A DNA stretch of 64,000 nt from Isoetes taiwanensis (lineage: Eukaryota > Streptophyta > Lycopodiopsida > Isoetales > Isoetaceae), in the NCBI GenBank assembly GCA_021234155.1, contig JAJEKV010000050.1:2737842-2801841 (forward strand), given 5' to 3'. The notes below the pieces were generated by a model that searched no databases, was not told the DNA's origin, and saw nothing but the letters and a program-made list of their open reading frames with translations. The translations under genes and the position numbers were made by a program. Positions 12,936 through 24,559 of this stretch are shown here, piece by piece (within the stretch, counting starts at the first letter, position 1; each line of letters opens with the position of its first letter).

Positions 12936-14179
12936 CTAACATTCCTCCTTCATTGCATAATCTGTCACCTTCAGAGAGTTTCTAAACTGAATAAATTTTC
13001 CTTCAGACAAACCTTTTGTAAATATGTCTGCTATTTGATCTGAAGTGTTCACATACACCATTTTGATGTATTCTTTTGAAGCCACGTCCCTAATGAAATG
13101 TATATTCAGCTCAATGTGTTTTGTCCTTTCATGGTCTACTGGATTTTTCACTATGGCTATACAGCTCTGACTATCAGTGAAAATTTCAGTAGGATTGTCT
13201 TGCTTACAGTTTAACTCCTCCAATAATCTTCTTAACCATGTAATTTCTTTTGCTCTATACTCTACCTCAGCAAATGACGTTGCTATGGCACTTTGTTTTT
13301 TGCATCTCCAAGCAACTACTCCTCCAGCCAAGAAAATAGCATATCCTGATGTTGATTTCCTTGAACTTAGATCATCACCCCAGTCAGCATCACTGTAAGC
13401 ATACAAATTAAGATCATCTGAATCAAATGCTATACCAAGATCTCTTGTATCTTTAAGATACTTTAGCACCCTTTTTCCTGCTTGCCAATGTTCTCTGGTT
13501 GGGTCATTGCATTTTCTGCTTAATATGTTGACTATGTAGGATATATCAGATCTGCTATTATTTGCCAAATACAGCAAGCAGCCTATTAGAGCTCTATAAG
13601 GCACATTTTGCATTTCTTGTTTTTCTTTCTCAGACAAATTTCCTTCTGCTGTCAATTTGTGACCAGGTACCACAGGAGTTTTGACTGCATTTGCCTCCTT
13701 CATATTGAACCTGTTTAGCATGTTATCTAAATGTCTACTTTGCTTAAGTCTCAGAATTTTCTTCTCCCTATTTCTTATTACCTCTATTCCCAAGAATTGC
13801 TTGAGTTCCCCTAAATCTCTCATTCTGAACCTTGCATGTAAAATATTCTTACAAATGTTTAGAACCTTTGTGTTGTTTGCCACCATAATGCAATCATCCA
13901 CATATAGTGCAATGATGCAATATTCCTCATCTAGTTTATATCTGTATAAATTCCCATCATTGTGGAAATTCTCAAATCCCTGCTCTTTAAGATAATTGTC
14001 CACGCATGAGAACCATTCTCTTGGAGCTTGTTTTAGACCATACATTGCCCTTTTAAGCTTCGAAACTTGATCATTCCCTTGTTTAAAACTTAGAGCTTAT
14101 TTCATAAAGATGCTTTCTTCTAGTTTGGCATTTAGAAAGGCTGTCTTAACATCCATATGATGCAATTCTAAGTTTAAAG
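12936..14179 (-). mobile_element. Ty1/copia retrotransposon, 3' half of pol (RT and RNase H)
   Basis: The 369-residue frame reads MYGLKQAPREWF, then YVDDCIMV (RT catalytic YVDD), FLGIEVIR, YRALIGCLLYLANNSRSDIS and the RNase H end YSDADWGDD...KSTSGYAIFL, HIELNIHFIRD and TSDQIADIFTKGL. This is copia order. Upstream (14045-14179) the frame continues with a TAG to the HHMDVKTAFLN block. The element resumes at 22763 after an 8.6-kb insertion. LTRs were not identified; the 3' LTR should lie in 12.3-12.9 kb, where I see no clear boundary. Confidence 0.92.
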
Positions 14180-14247
14180 TTCCCCATTGTACTCTGTAAC
14201 TTTCTCTGGATAATAAAGGCTCAAGTCCTCAAAAAAAAAAAAAAAAA
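14180..14247 (+). mobile_element. 5'-truncated L1 3' end with poly(A)
   Basis: Fifty-one bases containing ggataataaaggctcaag are followed by 17 A residues, a typical L1 3' end. They lie directly beside CTAAGTTTAAAG (14168-14179). The same 12 bp recurs at 22763-22774 on the other side of the whole insert, as expected for an L1 target-site duplication inside the copia ORF (ALNL|ELHHMDV). Confidence 0.7.
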
Positions 14248-14930
14248 CCCTGACCGAGCTAGCCTAGGCAACAGCCCACTAGCCCTTCAAACTACCTCAG
14301 TCAATCCCTTGGTAGCCTTATCAAACCAAACTATGACTGAGCTCATCATAGCCGGGACATCTTAACTCTGGAAAACAAGTTATTTAACTTTAATCATTGT
14401 GTCTCTTAGCATTTTCTGCCATCACCAAATCCTTAGGATTATAATAATGTTGGATTATTGCCTTAGGTTTGGCCTACAATAGGTTAAACTAACTCGCTTA
14501 GAAGTCTCAGACATTAATTGTACAAAAAATGCGTTAACTTATTACTATGCCTTTTTAAACTCCTATACTAGGCTTACTAGTCCTATTGGACTTTAATTTC
14601 TTTGGTTATTCCCATCGTGATTAATTTATTTAATGACTCCAGAATGAAGATTTTTATACTTTGAGACCATATACAGTCTTATATTTCACCTCTTTAATCT
14701 ATAAGGTCTCTCTTACCTACTGGTGTTCTTATGTCTTTCCATATTATTCCTACTCAATGGACATGCAACATAGGTAGAATCATTCTATACCAAGTATGCA
14801 CAAGAAAATAATGTTGACAATCAGTATTGTCAAAAACCAAAATATATTCAGAAAGAAGATTTACCACTAGTTTGACTGCAATTATACGTTAATATTATTG
14901 TAAAGTTTAGCAACAGTAGAGTACTTTTAC

Positions 14931-15275
14931 CAGCTGGTTTAAACCTGTATGTTTCATTCTGCTCCACAAAATACAGTTCACGGCTATAACTAAGAAGCCA
15001 AAGGTTGATAGAAGAAACCTTTTAAGTTTAACAAAATCAGGTTGGTTCAGCACCATTACCACTCCAATAGTAACAATGTTATACGATATTTCAGCAAGTA
15101 AATACTCATCCCATCCCTTTAAGCAGAAGCCATACATAACAGCAAAAAGAAGACAATGAGAGATGAACCACCACGTACCTGCAGCCAACCATGCAAACAT
15201 TAGCAGTAGACCTGGTAAAGATGCAAGGGCCAAAAGGTACATTGGGTGGTTCATGGCTCTTCGCCCTTCACCCAT
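14931..15275 (-). CDS. Exon of a small multi-pass membrane protein (left repeat)
   Basis: Starts MGEGRRAMNHPMYLL and ends at a GT donor (CTG|GTAAAAG, 14931). It has about three hydrophobic stretches: residues about 11-52 (LLALASLPGLLLMFAWLAAG then WWFISHCLLFAVMYGFCL), about 65-78 (IVTIGVVMVL) and about 88-107 (FLLSTFGFLVIAVNCILW). Conserved in both 2.1-kb repeats with only three residue changes (C39F, Q79R, G111D; left residue first), which suggests a recent duplication. No family was recognised. It probably belongs to the same spliced gene as the acidic exon at 16000-15686. Confidence 0.5.
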
Positions 15276-15685
15276 TGTACATCTTTTTGCCCTTGTATTA
15301 GTAACTGCTAAAAAGAGAAAGCTTAGAAAGTAACTACTGCTGTAAGAGAACTTTTTATGTTCTTATTGTGTAACCTACACCATGTTCTTGTTTACCATAA
15401 CCTGTCGATTCAAGTTTACAAATTACAGGTGCTATTAGGCGAATAGCAAACCCTTAGTTAGCTTAACACTTAACTGTGAACAAAGGGAACTCCAAACTGT
15501 TCCAGAAACTTTTGGCCACGGTTTCCTTCTCCAAGATATTCTGAAATCTTATTTTTTCATAAACTGCTACTTTATTCCTTATGTACCTCTTTTATGATCA
15601 TGGATACGTCCAGGCTCTGTTATTCTTTATAGGAAATCAGGGTATCTTCAATATTATTTGTAAACTTTGTAGGAAGACCTCATAC

Positions 15686-16000
15686 CTGATTTTCTTCTTC
15701 ATCAGATTGATTTAATTCGTCCATTTGTGTTTCAGGAACGAACTGCTCACTAGCATTATTTCCCTTGTAATAACTTGTTTGCCTACGATTCATATTTCCA
15801 GCTTTCTTGTGCATGTAGCCTGAACCGCCATCAAAGCTCCTTTTATGGTCATACCCTCTTCCTGATCCTCGCCTATCCATGTTTAAGGCCTTGAATCCAA
15901 CACAGCATTCACAATCATATAACTCTTTGCAGGTCTGCACTGGGTAATCCGGAGGCTCTTCTTCCTCTTGGTTAGAATCACAATCTGAGAAATACCCCAT
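15686..16000 (-). CDS. Acidic/basic low-complexity exon upstream of the membrane exon (left repeat)
   Basis: Encodes MGYFSDCDSNQEEEEPPDYP, then RRGSGRGYDHKRS and DELNQSDEEENQ, and stops at a consensus splice donor CAG|GTATGAGG (15686). A longer frame in the right repeat starts earlier at MTFRKQPIVIAAPAH. The left copy has lost about 20 bp there. In the right copy a different indel breaks the frame after EPPDYPV. Each repeat is therefore damaged at a different place. Function unknown; the RGSGRG region could bind RNA, but this is speculation. Confidence 0.45.
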
Positions 16001-16384
16001 TCTGGGAGTTGTCGATTATCGGCTGCTTCCTAAATGTCATACTACTGACATTCTAGGGTTCCTAAATCCAATAAAAACCTTGCGTATCAAAAAGCCCACC
16101 TTTCTTAAATAACTTATCAATCATATGGAAAATGCCTTTACCGACCCAAGTGTTCCTAAAAACAATTTTTAGCCATTGCATGTACACATACCAATATAAA
16201 CCATATGTGTTATAAGGTAAAAGCCTTTCCACATAACCATTTAAAAACTATCAATACTATATTTCCAATGCTCATGTTTCAAGATCATCTAAATCATTGG
16301 AATTATTATTATAGGTAGTCTAATATAAAAAAAACCCTGCCTCCTACCGTAGGCTTGCTTCAGACCCCTACAAATTATTGCAAA

Positions 16385-16430
16385 TACTGTAACATGAGGG
16401 TGGGAGTACCCCTACTTGTTACAGTAGGGG
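16385..16430. other. Overlapping inverted repeats near the 3' end of the PLE core
   Basis: CTGTAAC and GTTACAG form one 7-bp stem. Overlapping it, GGAGtACCCCTAC pairs with GTAGGGGTcCTCC (12 of 13 matches, short loop). The two stems are mutually exclusive. The structure lies downstream of the RT stop codon on the minus strand. Confidence 0.55.
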
Positions 16431-16566
16431 TCCTCCACAACCCTATGTTTATTTCAGTAGTTAATATCCCGAAAATTTTATTTACCTTTAAACTTTTAAC
16501 ACTTATGATCTTGTTGAGCATGTTACTCCATACCAATAGCTAGGGAACAATCATAAGTGACATACC

Positions 16567-18591
16567 TTAGTAAAATTTCAGTAGACTTAGAAGAGTGTCC
16601 TTGTCGTATTTTAGTCCCGGGAATACATTATCTTGGATATATTTGTAAACCCGCTTTTGTAAACCTCTCTTGTCAAACCCATTATTGGTGAAACTATCGA
16701 CCAGTGCCTTGATATCTTGGGCAGCCAATACTGGATTTGTATTTATATACATGAAAGGCATGATCTGTGAAACAATGACATTCCTGGCCTGCATGTATGG
16801 TCTGCAACCACTTGCATGTATGAACTTAATAGCCTTAAACGGTACTAGTTCCCTTTTATCAAATTTGAAAGTTTGAAACAGTCCTAATGCTTTGTCGAAG
16901 ACCTGTATGGTCATGTTAAGAAAGTTGGCCTTGCAGCCCCATATATGATCAGGGTGGTTATTAGAATATATGGTCTCATCTTTAATCCCTGGGGAGTTAA
17001 GATCATAGATTTGTAGTTCCACTTCCTCAGACCCTACATTTTCTTTAAGGAACTTCTTAATTCCTGGGCAGTTAATAGCCAATAGATCATCCATGTACCT
17101 AAACACATGTCTGAAGGATTTGATATCTTCATATCTGCCCTGCATGGCCAGACTTTTGATGAACTGCAGTTCGAACCAAGCCAGATACAAATTGCACCAA
17201 CAGGGGCTGCAAGAGAATCCCATGGGAATTCCAGAAATTTGCTGCCACAAACCCTTACCTACTTTTACACAGCAGTTGTTGAGCAGCCAGGTATTGATTT
17301 TAACAAACTTTTGTTGGGTAATCAAGTCCCAACATTTACTTTGGGGAGCTGTCTTAAACCATCTGGCTACAAACTCGCCATTATTAGATTTTTTGATCCA
17401 TAGATTGCATTTTTTATTTCTCTTTCTCATGAACCTCCAAGTGAGTCCAGCAATTTTTTCCATGACTTCACATATGCCATTACTTCCAAGTAAAGGGATA
17501 CTTTCATAACATCTAGTGATGTCTGCTACAAATACATCCTGGATTTTGTGAGGTAGATTAAGAGCTACATCGTATACGGAATTGACAATCCAGTTACAAT
17601 TTATCCTGCCAGGTAGGAAAGTGTTAATGCAATCACATGCATCCTTGGAGATCTCAGGCCAGTTACTCAAAATAGTATTAAGGGTGGCTGTAAGAATGAG
17701 GGCTATTTCAGAGTAGATTGTACCATGGGCGTTTGTGATCCACCTGTAGGACTGTTTGTGTACTTTGAATATTCCAAGAAGATATGGGAGTTTATCAGAC
17801 TCGAAGCTGATGTAGTCAAAGTATTCCCTCATATTATTCTTTAATTCCATGACCAATTCGTCTATGGTAGTAACCAAAGGTCTGAAATCAGAACTGTCCA
17901 ATCTTTTGAGAGCTTCATCCCTAATATGTTTAGGACATATGAAGCATGGGTTATTAGCTGCCTTGTCAACCCCTGAAACATATAGGTTCTTGGCCAGCCA
18001 TTCTAAATTTTTAACCACATCATGGTCATTTAGTGCAAATTTTCTGGTGATATCACTTCTGCATCCATCTTGTATTTCACTTCCCACATGTTCAATAATG
18101 TCAGCAATTATTTCCTCTTTCAAATCATCCTGGATGAAGGGGAACTGGTACCTATGAAGTTCAAATATATTCTGGCATGTATTTCTGATCTCAGCTTTCA
18201 TGTCTTTCCATTTGAGTGCCTTATCAGGAATATGGCTCAAACCTTTTTTCAACAGATTTCTAAGTACCTTATTGTGTACAATATCTAAATCTGTGGTTCT
18301 GACGTGCCCGATATCCATGTCTACAAATCTGGTTAAATTTGGATTTGTGCAGGGGCAATTAGGCTCTTTGTCCTCTGCAAACACTGGATACGGTTTATAG
18401 CAGATCTCTTTGAGGTTTTCAGTATACCTCCAAGCAAACATAGTGTCCTCCATTATTTGTGCTCCAGCTTCTCCCAATTTGGCTGTCATATATCTATGCA
18501 CAATTTTAGGAAAACAGATACTATCCAAAATTTTGGAAAGGGAAAGACAGTGGACTATCTTCCTTTTACAGCTCATATTCACTTCATTCAT
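16567..18591 (-). CDS. Penelope-like reverse transcriptase
   Basis: An intact 674-codon frame. RT motifs are in order: a LPYLLGIFKVHK block near residue 268, motif A VFVADITRCYES at 353-364 (Asp357), motif B GIPMGFSCSP at 454-463, motif C FRYMDDLLAI at 497-506 (Asp501/Asp502), and FLNMTIQV at 557. Upstream, GHVRTTDLDIV (95-105) and LLKKGLSHIP (113-122) match the N-terminal region preceding the RT in PLEs. The IPMG form of motif B fits PLE rather than LTR or LINE RTs. The C-terminus ends LLSLLKFY without a GIY-YIG domain. EN-lacking PLEs use free 3' ends such as telomeres; that this one does so is inference. Both catalytic aspartates are present, so the element may be young. Confidence 0.88.
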   Translation of the reverse strand: MNEVNMSCKRKIVHCLSLSKILDSICFPKIVHRYMTAKLGEAGAQIMEDTMFAWRYTENLKEICYKPYPVFAEDKEPNCPCTNPNLTRFVDMDIGHVRTTDLDIVHNKVLRNLLKKGLSHIPDKALKWKDMKAEIRNTCQNIFELHRYQFPFIQDDLKEEIIADIIEHVGSEIQDGCRSDITRKFALNDHDVVKNLEWLAKNLYVSGVDKAANNPCFICPKHIRDEALKRLDSSDFRPLVTTIDELVMELKNNMREYFDYISFESDKLPYLLGIFKVHKQSYRWITNAHGTIYSEIALILTATLNTILSNWPEISKDACDCINTFLPGRINCNWIVNSVYDVALNLPHKIQDVFVADITRCYESIPLLGSNGICEVMEKIAGLTWRFMRKRNKKCNLWIKKSNNGEFVARWFKTAPQSKCWDLITQQKFVKINTWLLNNCCVKVGKGLWQQISGIPMGFSCSPCWCNLYLAWFELQFIKSLAMQGRYEDIKSFRHVFRYMDDLLAINCPGIKKFLKENVGSEEVELQIYDLNSPGIKDETIYSNNHPDHIWGCKANFLNMTIQVFDKALGLFQTFKFDKRELVPFKAIKFIHASGCRPYMQARNVIVSQIMPFMYINTNPVLAAQDIKALVDSFTNNGFDKRGLQKRVYKYIQDNVFPGLKYDKDTLLSLLKFY

Positions 18592-18960
18592 ACGTATCCT
18601 ACCTTGACAATCCTTGACGATGGTCCTGGTGACCTGTTATCAAATATCATTTAGTATATTTGTTAGTCCTTCTCTCACTGAATTCCCTTTAATTATATTG
18701 AACTCCACTTGGCTTCCTACCAAGTGATGGGATGGTAAAATAATGCAGAGCATGGATCAGTGGCATGCTTGCGTTCATTGTCAATAGCAACCTTCGAAAA
18801 CTTAGAAGGTGCAGACCAGTGTTTCATATTCCTTTATTTTATTAGTCATGGTAACAATAGAGTCCTAATCAAGAACTAATATTGTTTAGAAAAACTCTAG
18901 TATTTAATATAGTAGTACTAGGATAGTAAGCTTCAAGATATTCAAATGTATACCTTTTTA

Positions 18961-20498
18961 TTAGAACTTCATATTTTGAGCGACATCTCCAAAGTCCTTA
19001 TTTTCTGGTTGTAGAATTTGCTTTGTGACAGATTTGTCCATAGGATTAGGTGACCCTAAGTGCACAATTGCCGAGTTGTCTGCAATACTTGAGGTGCTTC
19101 TTTCAGGTGCCACTGTAATACGAGGTGGTACATAGCTTCCACTGCTGAAATTAGATGAAGTTCTGGTAACAGTCTTGTTCTTTTTGGGTTTTCCACTGCT
19201 GGCTCCCTGTTCCTGTGTCAGCATAAATTTGACTGGCTTAATACTTTTTTCTGCAATTTGAGCCATTTTACATTTAGGGAAATTAAGCTTTAAATCCCCC
19301 CAAGGGTCATTTGCTAGCTCCAGCGCCATACTGATAAGAGTTTTTCGAACCTCTAAATAGGAGATGTATGCAATAATGCTGTCTCTTAATGTAGTTGTTA
19401 ACAGTTTGCGCATTGATACCATTTGAGCAGTGACTGACATATCAGGGAAAACCTGATCTAAATTGTTGAACATATACCAAACGGCATGATCCAACCATGT
19501 CATGTTATCCTTGCAGCTGTTTCCTTTGTTTCTAGGTTCGCAGCCACATTTGAAATAGGGGCACATTGTTCTCCATACCCTCTTCAAGTAGAATGCATCC
19601 CTTGGAATAGTTGGATAGGCCATATGACCCTTCTGCCTAATGTAGATGAATTCATCCTTGCTACATGATTTGTCAAAGAACCTGTGATCAATCTTAAGTT
19701 TAATTTTCTCTTTGATAATGATTTTCTCCATTTTTTCAGCGGCCATTTTTGCTACACGTTCCTGCTCTGGTGTGATATTCCCCAACATAATCCATGCCTC
19801 TCTACTGATTGGAGCAAGAGCCCCAAAATTTTTTGTACGCCATATACCATGGTTGCAAAACATAGCATGTCCTTCGACTAGTCTTTCAGAGATAATAGGG
19901 AACAGATGGCAGTTATGTAATGTGAAACAAAATTCCTTGTCTTCATCACTGATGTTGGAATTTAGAGTGCTATTCATAGCCTGCTTCTCTTCTTCTGTCA
20001 GTAGAGATTCACCAAAGGGGTCCTCCTCCTTAGTATTACTGTTGACCTGGATTGATGTGCAAGCTGTACTTTTGGATATACATGAGTTTTTTATTTTGTT
20101 TGCTTTTTCCAGGGCTGGAATACAGTGAAAAAATAAAGCTTTAGCTTGATCTTCTTCCATAGTTGACTGGTAAACCTTATTGGGCAGCTCGTCATAGATG
20201 GCATCAATAATTGCTACAGCATCATCCCAATTGTCCCCTACTTTGTTCAATTTAGGAACCATATCTAGCCATGCATTAAACCCCAGATGGGAAATGGCTG
20301 ATAACTGTTCAGGTTTTCTGGTGGTCTCCTTCTCCAGCAGGATCATATGAATATTCTGATTTTTGATACAACTGAGCAAAGTTTGGACTGCATAATTAGG
20401 GCATGCAATTATGCTTTTTCCATACCCCATTGGTCCGAGTACACTATTCCATGTTGGTGGGATAAATTCCACTTCATTCTGTGATTCATCATTATCCT
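18961..20498 (-). CDS. PLE ORF1 (unknown function)
   Basis: Open from a likely splice acceptor (TGCATAG, just before 20498) through DNDESQNEVEFIPP to a stop at 18961, about 512 codons. No ATG opens it, so a 5' exon is expected. Visible features: GPMGYGKS near the N-terminus, which fits the Walker A pattern but lacks an obvious Walker B; a Cys cluster CPYFKCGC...C about two thirds along; a Lys-rich stretch (EKMEKIIIKEKIKLKID); and a Ser/Thr/Pro-rich tail. It lies about 370 bp upstream of the RT, the usual place for a PLE ORF1. Not recognised beyond that. Confidence 0.6.
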
Positions 20499-21312
20499 AT
20501 GCATTTCAAGACACATAAGTTAGTGGAGAACCTTATCCAAATATCAAACAACCAAAAGAGTAGGCTCACAATCTTCCAAAACAGTAAAGATGCCTCACTA
20601 GTAGAACCAATGATTTGAAGTTTCTAAAAAAAAACCCTGACCGAGCTAGCCTAGGCAACAGCCCACTAGCCCTTCAAACTACCTCAGTCAATCCCTTGGT
20701 AGCCTTATCAAACCAAACTATGACTGAGCTCATCATAGCCGGGACATCTTAACTCTGGAAAACAAGTTATTTAACTTTAATCATTGTGTCTCTTAGCATT
20801 TTCTGCCATCACCAAATCCTTAGGATTATAATAATGTTGGATTATTGCCTTAGGTTTGGCCTACAATAGGTTAAACTAACCTGCCTAGAAGTCTGTACAC
20901 AGTGTACAAAATGCGTTAACTTATTACTATACCTTTTTAAACTCCTATACTAGGCTTACTAGTCCTATTGGACTTTAATTTCTTTGGTTATTCCCATCGT
21001 GATTAATTTATTTAAAGACTCCAGAATGAAGATTTTTATACTTTGAGACCATATACAGTCTTATATTTCACCTCTTTAATCTATAAGGTCTCTCTTACCT
21101 ACTGGTGTTCTTATGTCTTTCCATATTATTCCTACTCAATGGACATGCAACATAGGTAGAATCATTCTATACCAAGTATGCACAAGAAAATAATGTTGAC
21201 ACTCAGTATTGTCAAAAACCAAAATATATTCAGAAAGAAGATTTACCACTAGTTTGACTGCAATTATACGTTAATATTATTGTAAAGTTTAGCAACAGTA
21301 GAGTACTTTTAC

Positions 21313-21657
21313 CAGCTGGTTTAAATCTGTATGTTTCATTCTGCTCCACAAAATACAGTTCACGGCTATAACTAAGAAGCCAAAGGTTGATAGAAGAAAC
21401 CTTTTAAGTTTAACAAAATCAGGTCGGTTCAGCACCATTACCACTCCAATAGTAACAATGTTATACGATATTTCAGCAAGTAAATACTCATCCCATCCCT
21501 TTAAGCAGAAGCCATACATAACAGCAAAAAGAAGAAAATGAGAGATGAACCACCACGTACCTGCAGCCAACCATGCAAACATTAGCAGTAGACCTGGTAA
21601 AGATGCAAGGGCCAAAAGGTACATTGGGTGGTTCATGGCTCTTCGCCCTTCACCCAT
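21313..21657 (-). CDS. Membrane-protein exon, right repeat copy
   Basis: Same as the exon at 15275-14931: MGEGRRAMNHPMYLL start, three hydrophobic stretches and the CTG|GTAAAAG donor. It differs at a few residues (FLLFAVMYG, MVLNRPDF, MKHTDLNQL). Confidence 0.5.
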
Positions 21658-22068
21658 TGTACATCTTTTTGCCCTTGTATTAGTAACTGCTAAAAAGAGA
21701 AAGCTTAGAAAGTAACTACTGCTGTAAGAGAACTTTTTATGTTCTTATTGTGTAACCTACACCATGTTCTTGTTTACCATAACCTGTCGATTCAAGTTTA
21801 CAAATTACAGGTGCTATTAGGCGAATAGTAAACCCTTAGTTAGCTTAACACTTACCTGTGAACAAAGGGAACTCCAAACTGTTCCAGAAACTTTTGGCCA
21901 CGGTTTCCTTCTCCAAGATATTCTGAAATCTTATTTTTTCATAAACTGCTACTTTATTCCTTATGTACCTCTTTTATGATCATGGATCGCCCAGGGCTCT
22001 CGTTATTCTTTATAGGAAATCAGGGTATCTTCAATATTATTTGTAAACTTTGTAGGAAGACCTCATAC

Positions 22069-22448
22069 CTGATTTTCTTCTTCATCAGATTGATTTAATT
22101 CGTCCATTTGTGTTTCAGGAACGAACTGCTCACTAGCATTATTTCCCTTGTAATAACTTGTTTGCCTACGATTCATATTTCCAGCTTTCTTGTGCATGTA
22201 GCCTGAACCGCCATCAAAGCTCCTTTTATGGTCATACCCTCTTCCTGATCCTCGCCTATCCATGTTTAAGGCCTTGAATCCAAACAAAGATTCACAATCA
22301 TATAACTCTTTTTGTGTCTCCAGACTGGGTAATCCGGAGGCTCTTCTTCCTCTTGGTTAGAATCACAATCTGAGAAATACCCCATTCTGGAAGTTGTCGA
22401 TATATGCGCGGGAGCAGCAATTACTATCGGCTGCTTCCTAAATGTCAT
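22069..22448 (-). pseudogene. Acidic/RGG-like exon, right repeat copy, frameshifted
   Basis: Begins MTFRKQPIVIAAPAHISTTS, an N-terminus lost from the left copy, and runs to EPPDYPV. It then shifts frame because gtctggagacacaaaaag replaces the left-copy gtgcagacctgcaaag. The original frame resumes at GFKALNMDRRGSGRGYDHK and runs to the same CAG|GTATGAGG donor. Confidence 0.5.
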
Positions 22449-22762
22449 ACTACTGACATTCTAGGGTTCCTAAATCCAATAAAAACCTTGCGTATCAAAA
22501 AGCCCACCTTTCTTAAATAACTTATCAATCATATGGAAAATGCCTTTACCGACCCAAGTGTTCCTAAAAACAATTTTTAGCCATTGCATGTACACATACC
22601 AATATAAACCATATGTGTTATAAGGTAAAAGCCTTTTCACATAACCATTTAAAAACTATCAATACTATATTTCCAATGCTCATGTTTCAAGATCATCTAA
22701 ATCATTGGAATTATTATTATAGGTAGTCTAATATATTAAAAAAAAAAAAAAAAAAAAAGGAA

Positions 22763-23548
22763 CTAAGTTTAAAGCATTAGCTAATGCCAATAATACCCTG
22801 ATGCTTGTGAGTTTTACAATAGGTGAATATGTGTCTTCATAGTCTACCCCTTGTTTTTGTGCGTATCCCTGAGCCACCAGTCGAGCCGTATGCTCCTTTG
22901 TTCCATCAGCACCTATTTTTATTTTGAAAATCCATTTGCCTCCTATTACATTTCTGTTTTGTGGAATTTGAACCAATTCATAAGTCTCAGTGTCCAGAAA
23001 AGATTTAAGTTTCTCCTTCATGGCTTCTTCCCATTTTCCTTTGTCTTTGGAGTTGAGTGCTTCATCTACATTTCTAGGAACCTCTTCATCTTCAATGACT
23101 GCCATAATTTGATCATAATCATGACCTATATTTTCTATTCTTTTACTTTTCCCACAAATATTTCTCCCATATAAGGCATTGTCAATGTTTGCTTCTTCAA
23201 CCAAATTCTGTATTTGGCTTTTCCTTCTCTTTTCTATTGGCTTGTCTTCCCTTGCAACTTCAGGTATAGTTGTGTCTGACTCTGTTTCCTTTTCATTATT
23301 CTCATACTCATCTCTGTATCCACTTTCTGACCCATTATCTGAATCAATATCTAGATTCTTAGGTTCAACCTTCTGCATTTCATTTGTCTCCTTCGATGGC
23401 TCCAGAAATTTCTTATTGAATCTATGTTTATAGAAAATCTCCTAATTGAACACTACATCTCTGCTGATAGTAATTGTTCTAGACTCAGGAATGTATATCC
23501 TATAACCTTTGCTTTCTTGATCATATCCAAATCTCGCACTCTGCATAG
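22763..23548 (-). mobile_element. Ty1/copia, integrase C-terminus and RT start (5' part)
   Basis: Reads GYDQESKGYRIYIPESR and ISRDVVFN, then a TAG and an acidic linker, then KWEEAMKEKLKSF, NVIGGKWIFKIKI, LVAQGYAQKQGVDYEDTYSP and LLALANALNL. This is the copia integrase tail and RT N-terminus. It joins exactly to the sequence at 14167 once the insert and one 12-bp duplicate are ignored. Gag, protease and the integrase core are missing: at about 23548 the sequence changes to a plus-strand LINE. Confidence 0.9.
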
Positions 23549-23551
23549 AAA

Positions 23552-24300
23552 ATGATTCGTTATTTATTGTTTTTTTGGTTCTTTTTTTGGGTCAAACCTC
23601 AGATATTGAATGCTCTTAACAATTTCCATGCTTCTCATTATGGCATCATGGCCAAACTGTTTGGAGCAATTATAGAGAAGAAATTGAGCTCATGGGTGGA
23701 AGATGCTGGGATAAGGGCCATAGGGCAGGCTGGTTTCCGGAAGGATCACGCAACGATAGACCATCTAATAACTCTTAGAGTGTTGGCAGAAGGATCCAAG
23801 GGGCACGGACGTGCTCTTTACTGTTGTTTTGTAGACTTCACAAAGGCATTCGACCGAGTGTCAAGCGGAAAGTTGGGAGAGAGAATGCAGGATATGAAGG
23901 TACCTTCTAATCTGACACAGGCAGTAGCAAGGCTCTATGAGAAGGTATTAATTCAGCTTTCTTTTCCTTTAGATGGGCCCGAAAAGATTGGAGTGAAGCA
24001 GGGATGTCCGTTATCCCCGACTCTCTTTGGAATCTTCATAGACAAGCTAGAAGAATGGCTCAATGTGGCTGCTGGAAATGGGGCTCAACTGGGACAATAT
24101 GTGCTAAAAATCCTCCTATATGCAGATGATGTGGTGCTGATAGCACGAACTAAAGAGAGCCTTCAGCAACACTTGTTAGCACTAGAGCAATTTTGCTGCT
24201 CAACAGGGATGAAAGTAAATAAATCAAAGACCAAGGTAATGGTTATAGGAGCACGAGAAAATATAGATATGGTTCTAGATGGGGAAAGCTTGCACATGTG
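23552..24300 (+). mobile_element. Non-LTR (LINE) reverse transcriptase fragment
   Basis: A 249-codon frame with AGFRKDHATIDHLITLRV, CFVDFTKAFDRV (motif A), GVKQGCPLSPTLFGIFIDKL (motif B), LLYADDVVLIA (motif C) and FCCSTGMKVNKSKTKVM. It is truncated on both sides, abutting the copia 5' break at about 23548 and ending at GESLHM. It is related to the LINE copies at 39.6-44.1 kb. Confidence 0.9.
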
Positions 24301-24559
24301 AATTTCTTTATTTTCAATGATGAATATATGTTTCCACTACCATGGCAAATTTTGTTTCCACCGTGGATATTTTGTCTTGGTCATCATCGATGTTTGGCAA
24401 ACTTTGAGGTAAAAAAAAGCTTTTCCTATTGATATGACAACTTTCTGGTTGGAAACTTGAAATATCCGAGTATCCAGGGGATATTAGAAGATTTTCTATC
24501 AAAGTTTAAAGGTTTCCACAATACTGTAATCATCATCAGTGCAGTTTAAAGGTGATAGA

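Follow-up and report, generated by a model that had tools for sequence, protein, structure and literature searches.

A 64,000-nucleotide stretch of the Isoetes taiwanensis genome (hereafter the window) holds, on its minus strand, a retroelement that resembles endonuclease-less Penelope-like elements (EN(-) PLEs). The element runs from a run of 21 T (22758-22738) to a run of 17 T (14247-14231) in the order repeat, open reading frame 1 (ORF1, 511 aa), reverse transcriptase (RT) ORF (689 aa), repeat. Each repeat contains an exon, here called exon A, and a conserved structured RNA of ~174 nt. We consider it somewhat probable that this RNA selects the unspliced transcript of an endonuclease-less PLE-like element as template, and that eight terminal U residues (U8) pair with a genomic A-tract. 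A previous sequence-only reading had instead assigned to each repeat a spliced membrane-protein gene, whose membrane exon overlaps the structured RNA.

20626-22744, minus strand: 5' direct repeat, resembling a pseudo-long terminal repeat (pseudo-LTR), from self-BLAST of the locus
14239-16334, minus strand: 3' direct repeat, pseudo-LTR-like, from self-BLAST of the locus
15130-15303, minus strand: structured RNA, three-way junction with a small side hairpin, 3' copy (cmsearch, 195.8 bits for a sequence contained in the model; minimum free energy z score; covariation)
21512-21685, minus strand: structured RNA, 5' copy, inside the predicted intron between exon A and ORF1 (cmsearch, 189.7 bits)
14910-15362, minus strand: "membrane exon" frame, 3' copy, overlapping the structured RNA and judged non-coding from broken frames and synonymous divergence (dS)
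21292-21744, minus strand: "membrane exon" frame, 5' copy, judged non-coding from broken frames and dS

The two ~2.1-kb repeats are 97.1% identical across 2,126 alignment columns in the self-BLAST and enclose both ORFs, which agrees with the very long direct repeats first described. The body was flanked by direct repeats in 16 of 17 self-compared loci, most of which had been chosen because two repeats were present; the exception, L004, has only one repeat within the stretch.

A conserved structured RNA in each repeat

The RNA of the window has a predicted folding energy of -67.4 kcal/mol (z = -4.97). Its complement also folds well (z = -4.39), and GU cells outnumber AC cells in the RNA alignment (223 versus 45), so that the element-sense strand is favored as the folded RNA. 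In the consensus fold, a three-way junction joins a long helix to a second long arm, which bears near-invariant sequences (ACCUUUUGGCCCU; UUGGCUGCAGGUAC in the nearer copies); a side hairpin of 3 bp at the junction reads GGC/GCC, or GGU/ACC in four distant copies. Two-sided changes were found in 26 of the 52 pairs among 16 sequences, in 22 of 52 among the 53 distinct of 55 sequences, where they are compensatory, and in 22 of 52 among 17 sequences, 16 of which come from loci on a list of RT matches; none of 500 shuffles reached the observed value in any set, a test that related sequences inflate. Pairing amounted to 94.5, 94.9, and 85.1% of cells in the three sets and dropped to 36-52% when the partners were slid (39-50% in the 16-sequence set). 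These results indicate a region conserved as structure and sequence and not as protein. A bistable switch, in which a local hairpin excludes the long fold, was also considered; pairing of the hairpin was high in the first set (96.4% of cells) and in the second (98.7%) but failed in the set drawn mostly from the RT list (76.3%, with 353 of 500 shuffles as high), and the candidate was dropped.

We next considered what kind of RNA this could be. Known small ribozymes are shorter than the conserved region, which speaks against a self-cleaving ribozyme. Rfam searches of positions 14000-23000 of the window (to E = 5) and of seven relatives (to E = 3) gave no relevant match, to a hammerhead core or otherwise, with three and one chance-level matches, respectively, and no hammerhead core is apparent by eye in the junction. 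Near-invariant internal-loop residues at a three-way junction would nevertheless be compatible with catalysis, and passages of PMC11167929 and PMC6431247 place hammerhead ribozymes in the pseudo-LTRs of other PLEs. A ribozyme of a class outside Rfam, replacing the PLE hammerheads and cutting tandem transcripts into units, is an unlikely explanation, though the least unlikely of the alternatives. Somewhat less probable still is a role in splicing control, by which the RNA would fold a donor-like CAG/GTACGT into a helix and leave some transcripts unspliced. Nearly every copy in the first set retains CAGGTAC, which is paired in helix 6, but 7 of 17 distant sequences (L116, L119, L120, L121, L124, L128, and L130) depart from it while the fold mostly persists.

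The RNA was then sought with a covariance model built from 11 sequences, which matched in 17 of 17 sources, including L013-L016, left out of model building. The element-sense matches in the window were the two known copies only, with two weak antisense matches at the same places. All 40 loci preselected through the membrane frame contained the RNA, a result that is circular as a test of presence. Among 20 loci taken from the RT list (for one of which, C1051, a more distant frame match was known beforehand), 16 carried the RNA in element sense within a stretch of 1.4-1.45 kb lying 0.5-1.9 kb downstream (E from 6e-16 to 1.2e-41); six weak antisense matches coincided with element-sense places. 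It was also present in four of four whole loci picked from the RT and ORF1 lists. A repeat segment unlinked to any RT, which would have refuted the sequence-only reading, was thus not observed.

The "membrane exon" is a frame over the RNA

The 151-codon frame with hydrophobic segments is open in both window copies, as had been noted. However, when residues 24-78 were read in 55 copies, one per locus, the frame was broken by stops or shifts in 44, unanchored in one (L034), and open in 10, namely in the window and in nine other loci (L003, L014, L029, L030, L031, L033, L042, L058, and L063). A previous genome-wide count, in which 6 of the 150 matches listed (151 matches in all) were stop-free, also includes stops ahead of the supposed exon and is superseded by the 55-copy count. 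Four close relatives, L025-L028, carry a stop within the frame, and across 25 aligned repeat copies, drawn from 13 elements, the region shows indels not divisible by three amid conserved bases. The two window copies differ at no synonymous and three nonsynonymous sites. Between the window and L004, dS was 0.13 in the membrane frame, 0.51 in exon A, and 0.69 in ORF1, and the ratio of nonsynonymous to synonymous divergence (dN/dS) was 0.65, 0.22, and 0.06, respectively; between the window and L003, the membrane frame gave a dS of 0.11 and a dN/dS of 0.80. The dS of the frame is thus 4-5 times below that of the neighboring coding exons, which indicates constraint on the nucleotides themselves. 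A Pfam search with the frame returned no family above the cut-off, and the covariation of the RNA accounts for the conservation.

On these comparisons, we take the frame to be an open frame overlying the conserved structured RNA and not a gene. A spliced exon for a membrane protein, whether accessory or host-derived, is very improbable despite the open frame in both window copies and in nine other loci, and we reject this part of the sequence-only reading. The case is also a warning that a structured RNA may be what lies behind a long open frame in a repeat.

Exon A and its splice signals

15686-16000, minus strand: exon A, 3' copy, open; starts MGYFSD and ends ...EENQ, with a phase-0 donor at 15685 (frame and donor; dN/dS 0.22-0.25 against two relatives)
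22069-22385, minus strand: exon A, 5' copy, frame broken, donor intact (frame and donor)
18961-20496, minus strand: ORF1 exon, 511 aa, no Pfam family; acceptor AG at 20498-20497, phase 0 (ORF and comparison of acceptors)
16567-18633, minus strand: RT exon; acceptor CAG at 18636-18634, phase 0; motifs DITRCYESIP, GIPMGFSCSP, and YMDD (motifs; RVT_1 in relatives)

The acidic, RG-rich exon proposed for each repeat is borne out as a coding exon with a splice donor, CAG/GTATGAGG, in both window repeats. It had been called damaged in both copies; this is true of the 5' copy, whereas the frame of the 3' copy is open. Translations from 16 loci share an M-G-[YF]... start, an RG-rich middle, and an end ...VPETQ...Q, mostly followed by CAG/GT; some copies are frame-broken, some have no start within the stretch read, and some have a changed donor. 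The CAG/GT donor is also present in L013, L014, and L016, three loci with an RT 54-55% identical to that of the window. Across nine diverged repeats, mean pairwise column identity was 0.65 in the 20-column donor block, then 0.35 and 0.02. The dN/dS of exon A was 0.25, 0.22, 0.17, 0.22, 0.18, and 0.17 in six of nine pairs, with dS of 0.07-2.57 (above 1.5 in three of the six) and saturated dS in the remaining three pairs. These values indicate that exon A is under selection at the protein level.

We also compared the starts of the two ORFs. The ORF1 start is preceded by yAG/GAY in 15 of 17 loci (in L002 the frame shifts just behind the acceptor) and the RT start by CAG/ in 15 of 16. There is no conserved Met near either start, although a Met occurs at RT residue 16 in 7 of 16. 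The end of exon A and both acceptors are in phase 0, so that joins to ORF1 and to the RT would stay in frame, and the acidic C-terminal end of exon A would run on into the acidic start of ORF1. Given the phase-0 acceptors and the lack of a conserved start Met, exon A is probably an N-terminus common to the ORF1 and RT proteins. The earlier reading is right that the acidic exon is real, but in place of an accessory protein this exon most likely encodes the beginning of the ORF1 protein of the element itself, and perhaps also of its RT protein.

ORF1, RT, and the class of the element

The RT motif order (DK[GA], K.HK, motif A CYxSIP, G.PMG, and Y.DD) resembles what we take to be that of PLE RTs. 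RVT_1 matched 16 of 16 related RT proteins at E values up to 0.1 (best 1.5e-7), while the window's own RT protein fell below the Pfam cut-off. With direct pseudo-LTRs and two ORFs, the description of the element as PLE-like is retained. In the search of the genome with the RT, 65 of 4,829 first-look candidates were scored, giving at least 66 matches, 49 of them without stops; with ORF1, 84 of 3,807 were scored. ORF1 is a conserved 511-aa protein with a KCxCxPxxKGNxCKxxMTW stretch. It matched no Pfam family (11 proteins, best E = 0.049) and, in the PDB, only a Copia virus-like particle protein at an insignificant E of 0.72. The RT profile matched no RT in the PDB, and an AlphaFold model of the RT alone was useless (mean predicted local distance difference test score of 35.7). 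One viral-contig scan and one phage search yielded no relative of the RT, with two phage matches at E = 6.

The GIY-YIG endonuclease of canonical PLEs had no Pfam match in 16 RT and 11 ORF1 proteins. Nor did the protease, integrase, and RNase H that accompany the RT of Copia and Gypsy LTR retrotransposons match in the two ORFs and their relatives, where only RVT_1 and weak chance matches appeared. Two ORFs without a detectable endonuclease are also the arrangement of EN(-) PLEs, which the element on this evidence resembles. Among the titles and abstracts listed by our literature search, which mostly lay outside subscription literature, none described Isoetes PLEs or such an RNA, and the word "Penelope" does not occur in the main text of two Isoetes genome papers.

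Ends and target sites

14231-14247, minus strand: outer 3' T run, 17 T; inner junctions have about 8 T (sequence reading)
22738-22758, minus strand: outer 5' T run, 21 T (sequence reading)
14248-14398, minus strand: conserved 3'-end region of the repeat, 3' copy; predicted stem-loops, GGG, then the T run (RNAalifold)
20635-20785, minus strand: conserved 3'-end region of the repeat, 5' copy; then T9 and the body (RNAalifold)
14180-14230, minus strand: 51-nt antisense 3' end of an older repeat, LINE/SINE-like (long or short interspersed nuclear element) by its A tail; the element sits in the tail (97-98% matches elsewhere in the genome)
14168-14179, minus strand: 12-bp duplication CTTTAAACTTAG around the older insertion in a Copia ORF; other copy at 22763-22774 (none of 300 shuffles reached this length)

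The outer 5' T run was 11-24 long in nine of nine loci and the outer 3' run 11-29 in the six readable loci (window, L001, L002, L003, L014, and L015); L005 is without an end, and L009 and L016 run off the stretch. By comparison, 16 inner junctions had 5-9 T, and two were not found. In 39 further loci, read with a minimum of 6 T, the 10 inner ends had 8-10 T and the 16 outer ends 11-28 T, L043 among the latter reading 6 T, G, 7 T; one end was cut off (L052), and 12 were unrecognizable, among which shorter runs would fall. The conserved 3'-end region at 14248-14398 is 82-86% identical to several distant copies, and its stem-loops were predicted by RNAalifold from 23 distinct sequences without a shuffle control. 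The region in front of GGGT8 is a candidate structure for the initiation of reverse transcription.

The element is inserted in a Copia ORF, with RVT_2 matches on both sides. The 51 nt behind the window's outer 3' T run belong to a repeat found elsewhere with 97-100% identity (best 40 of 550 candidates scored), and at four sampled places this repeat stands behind 15-17 T with the element absent. L108, whose left flank is nearly identical to that of the L014 site, has 28 T and no element, and looks like an empty-site relative of L014. We had considered the 12-bp duplication and 51-nt tail as a PLE tail or an mRNA-primed end. The window and L014 tails are, however, common repeats, present without the element at seven sampled places (451 bases each), and the 12-bp duplication therefore belongs to the older insertion. 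L015 has a similar 10-bp duplication (0 of 300 shuffles), and five other loci have none beyond chance. Some copies (window, L003, L014, L015, L041, and L051) have similar sequences following the outer 3' T run, perhaps because the same older repeats were hit repeatedly.

Two insertions, those of the window and L014, were thus traced to T runs that are the A tails of older repeats; the others share the long T runs. No two tandem TTTAGGG or CCCTAAA units were found in 131 sequences comprising the window and the loci with fetched flanks. The insertions lie in T runs as if the terminal U8 of the RNA paired with an A-tract.

A model for template selection and priming

In the model that we favor, transcription would start in the 5' repeat. 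Splicing would join exon A either to ORF1, giving an A-ORF1 protein, or to the RT, giving an A-RT protein, so that two proteins with a common N-terminus would result from the alternative joins, and would remove the intronic 5' copy of the structured RNA. Since this copy lies inside the predicted intron, it would survive only in unspliced RNA. The full-length unspliced RNA would keep it and so be chosen by the element's proteins for reverse transcription; we infer that the RNA acts as a packaging or RT-recruitment signal. The 3' end of the RNA (stem-loops, GGG, and U8) would then pair with a genomic A-tract, for example the poly(A) tail of an older retro-insertion, and the 3' end of the A-tract would prime cDNA synthesis. 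A more far-reaching version, which we put forward only tentatively, is that an endonuclease-less PLE lineage parasitizes the poly(A) tails that other retrotransposons leave, priming through U8 paired with genomic A-tracts, and that its intronic RNA selects the unspliced template, for which reason the intron is never lost.

Several points weigh against this model. A second copy of the RNA lies in the 3' repeat and would remain in spliced mRNAs, except in any that terminate upstream of it. Within the downstream stretch searched, no RNA was detected at four of the 20 RT-list loci (L113, L114, L115, and L122). The two outer helices are weak in the most distant set, with pairing in 47% of cells for helix 1 and 70% for helix 2, and the number of further pair types there was unexceptional (reached in 145 of 500 shuffles). 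Exon A was not detected in L015 by tblastn, its donor is altered in the 3' copies of L005 and L007, and acceptors are missing for ORF1 in L005 and L011 and for the RT in L002. The A-tract idea draws on the general presence of T runs, and just two insertions could be followed back to the tail of an older repeat. Placement of the RT among PLEs by its motif order is tentative, and splicing, the transcription start, and RNA function are all predicted from the genome sequence.

The location of the RNA in both repeats, where it would stay in the 3' untranslated region of any mRNA reading through, could also fit an element for translation, stability, or export that acts there as well. No tie to translation was found, however, and the RNA lies ~1 kb upstream of the ORF1 exon; we regard this alternative as improbable, a little more so than splicing control.

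Relation to known systems

A retroviral packaging signal (psi) lies behind the major splice donor. The proposed template selection by an intronic RNA resembles it in that a structured RNA is positioned so that only unspliced RNA would carry it; it differs in the class of element and in the second RNA copy in the 3' repeat, and a role in packaging is here hypothetical. The hammerheads of PLE pseudo-LTRs and retrozymes are likewise conserved three-way-junction RNAs in a terminal repeat, whereas the present RNA has no Rfam match and another sequence and size.

A table in PMC9033089 includes EN(-) PLEs from Selaginella, Pinus, and Picea. EN(-) PLEs share with the present element repeats in a tandem-like arrangement and, as described in PMC6431247, two ORFs without an endonuclease; according to the same paper, Terminons, which are EN(-) PLEs, have a 3' fold followed by a short stretch able to pair with a telomeric-repeat target. 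In contrast, the 3' stretch here is GGGT8, the sites are T/A runs without telomeric repeats found, the repeat holds a new structured RNA, and ORF1 has no Pfam family. The endonuclease-containing PLEs (Penelope, Poseidon, and the Anolis element of PMC11167929) also have pseudo-LTRs, tandem copies, and RNA structure in the repeat, but neither a GIY-YIG domain nor a hammerhead was found here. Compared with a pseudo-LTR of 218 bp given in a passage of PMC3846280, the present repeats are about ten times longer. For the Anolis PLE, PMC11167929 places a protein-binding RNA motif, by hypothesis, in the first 172 nt of the ORF and shows that reverse transcription initiates internally. The T/A-run sites and the stem-loops predicted in front of GGGT8 would fit the logic of the Anolis PLE and of Terminons.

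How introns are retained through PLE retrotransposition was weighed between an antisense and an unspliced sense template, without decision, in part of PMC3846280. An RNA that marks the unspliced copy would, if confirmed, help to explain intron retention in such elements, and a conserved RNA within the presumed intron offers a direct, mutable handle on how PLEs keep introns. Insertion into T/A runs would extend base pairing between 3' end and target from telomeres to poly(A) tails.

Other observations on the locus and its relatives

Three repeat copies in a single orientation, spaced 6,788 and 6,777 bp, lie at 30.93-30.94 Mb of C907, and copies with near-constant spacing, also in a single orientation, at 30.92-30.94 Mb of C907 and 10.87-10.88 Mb of C919; this spacing suggests tandem arrays of the element. 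A possible short hairpin with TTGGTTTTACCA (20589-20625) opens the body directly behind the T8 of the 5' repeat and is also seen in L003, L008, and L015. Beside the Copia element, a LINE-type RT frame (RVT_1, E = 1.1e-28) was found on the plus strand at 23549-24301.

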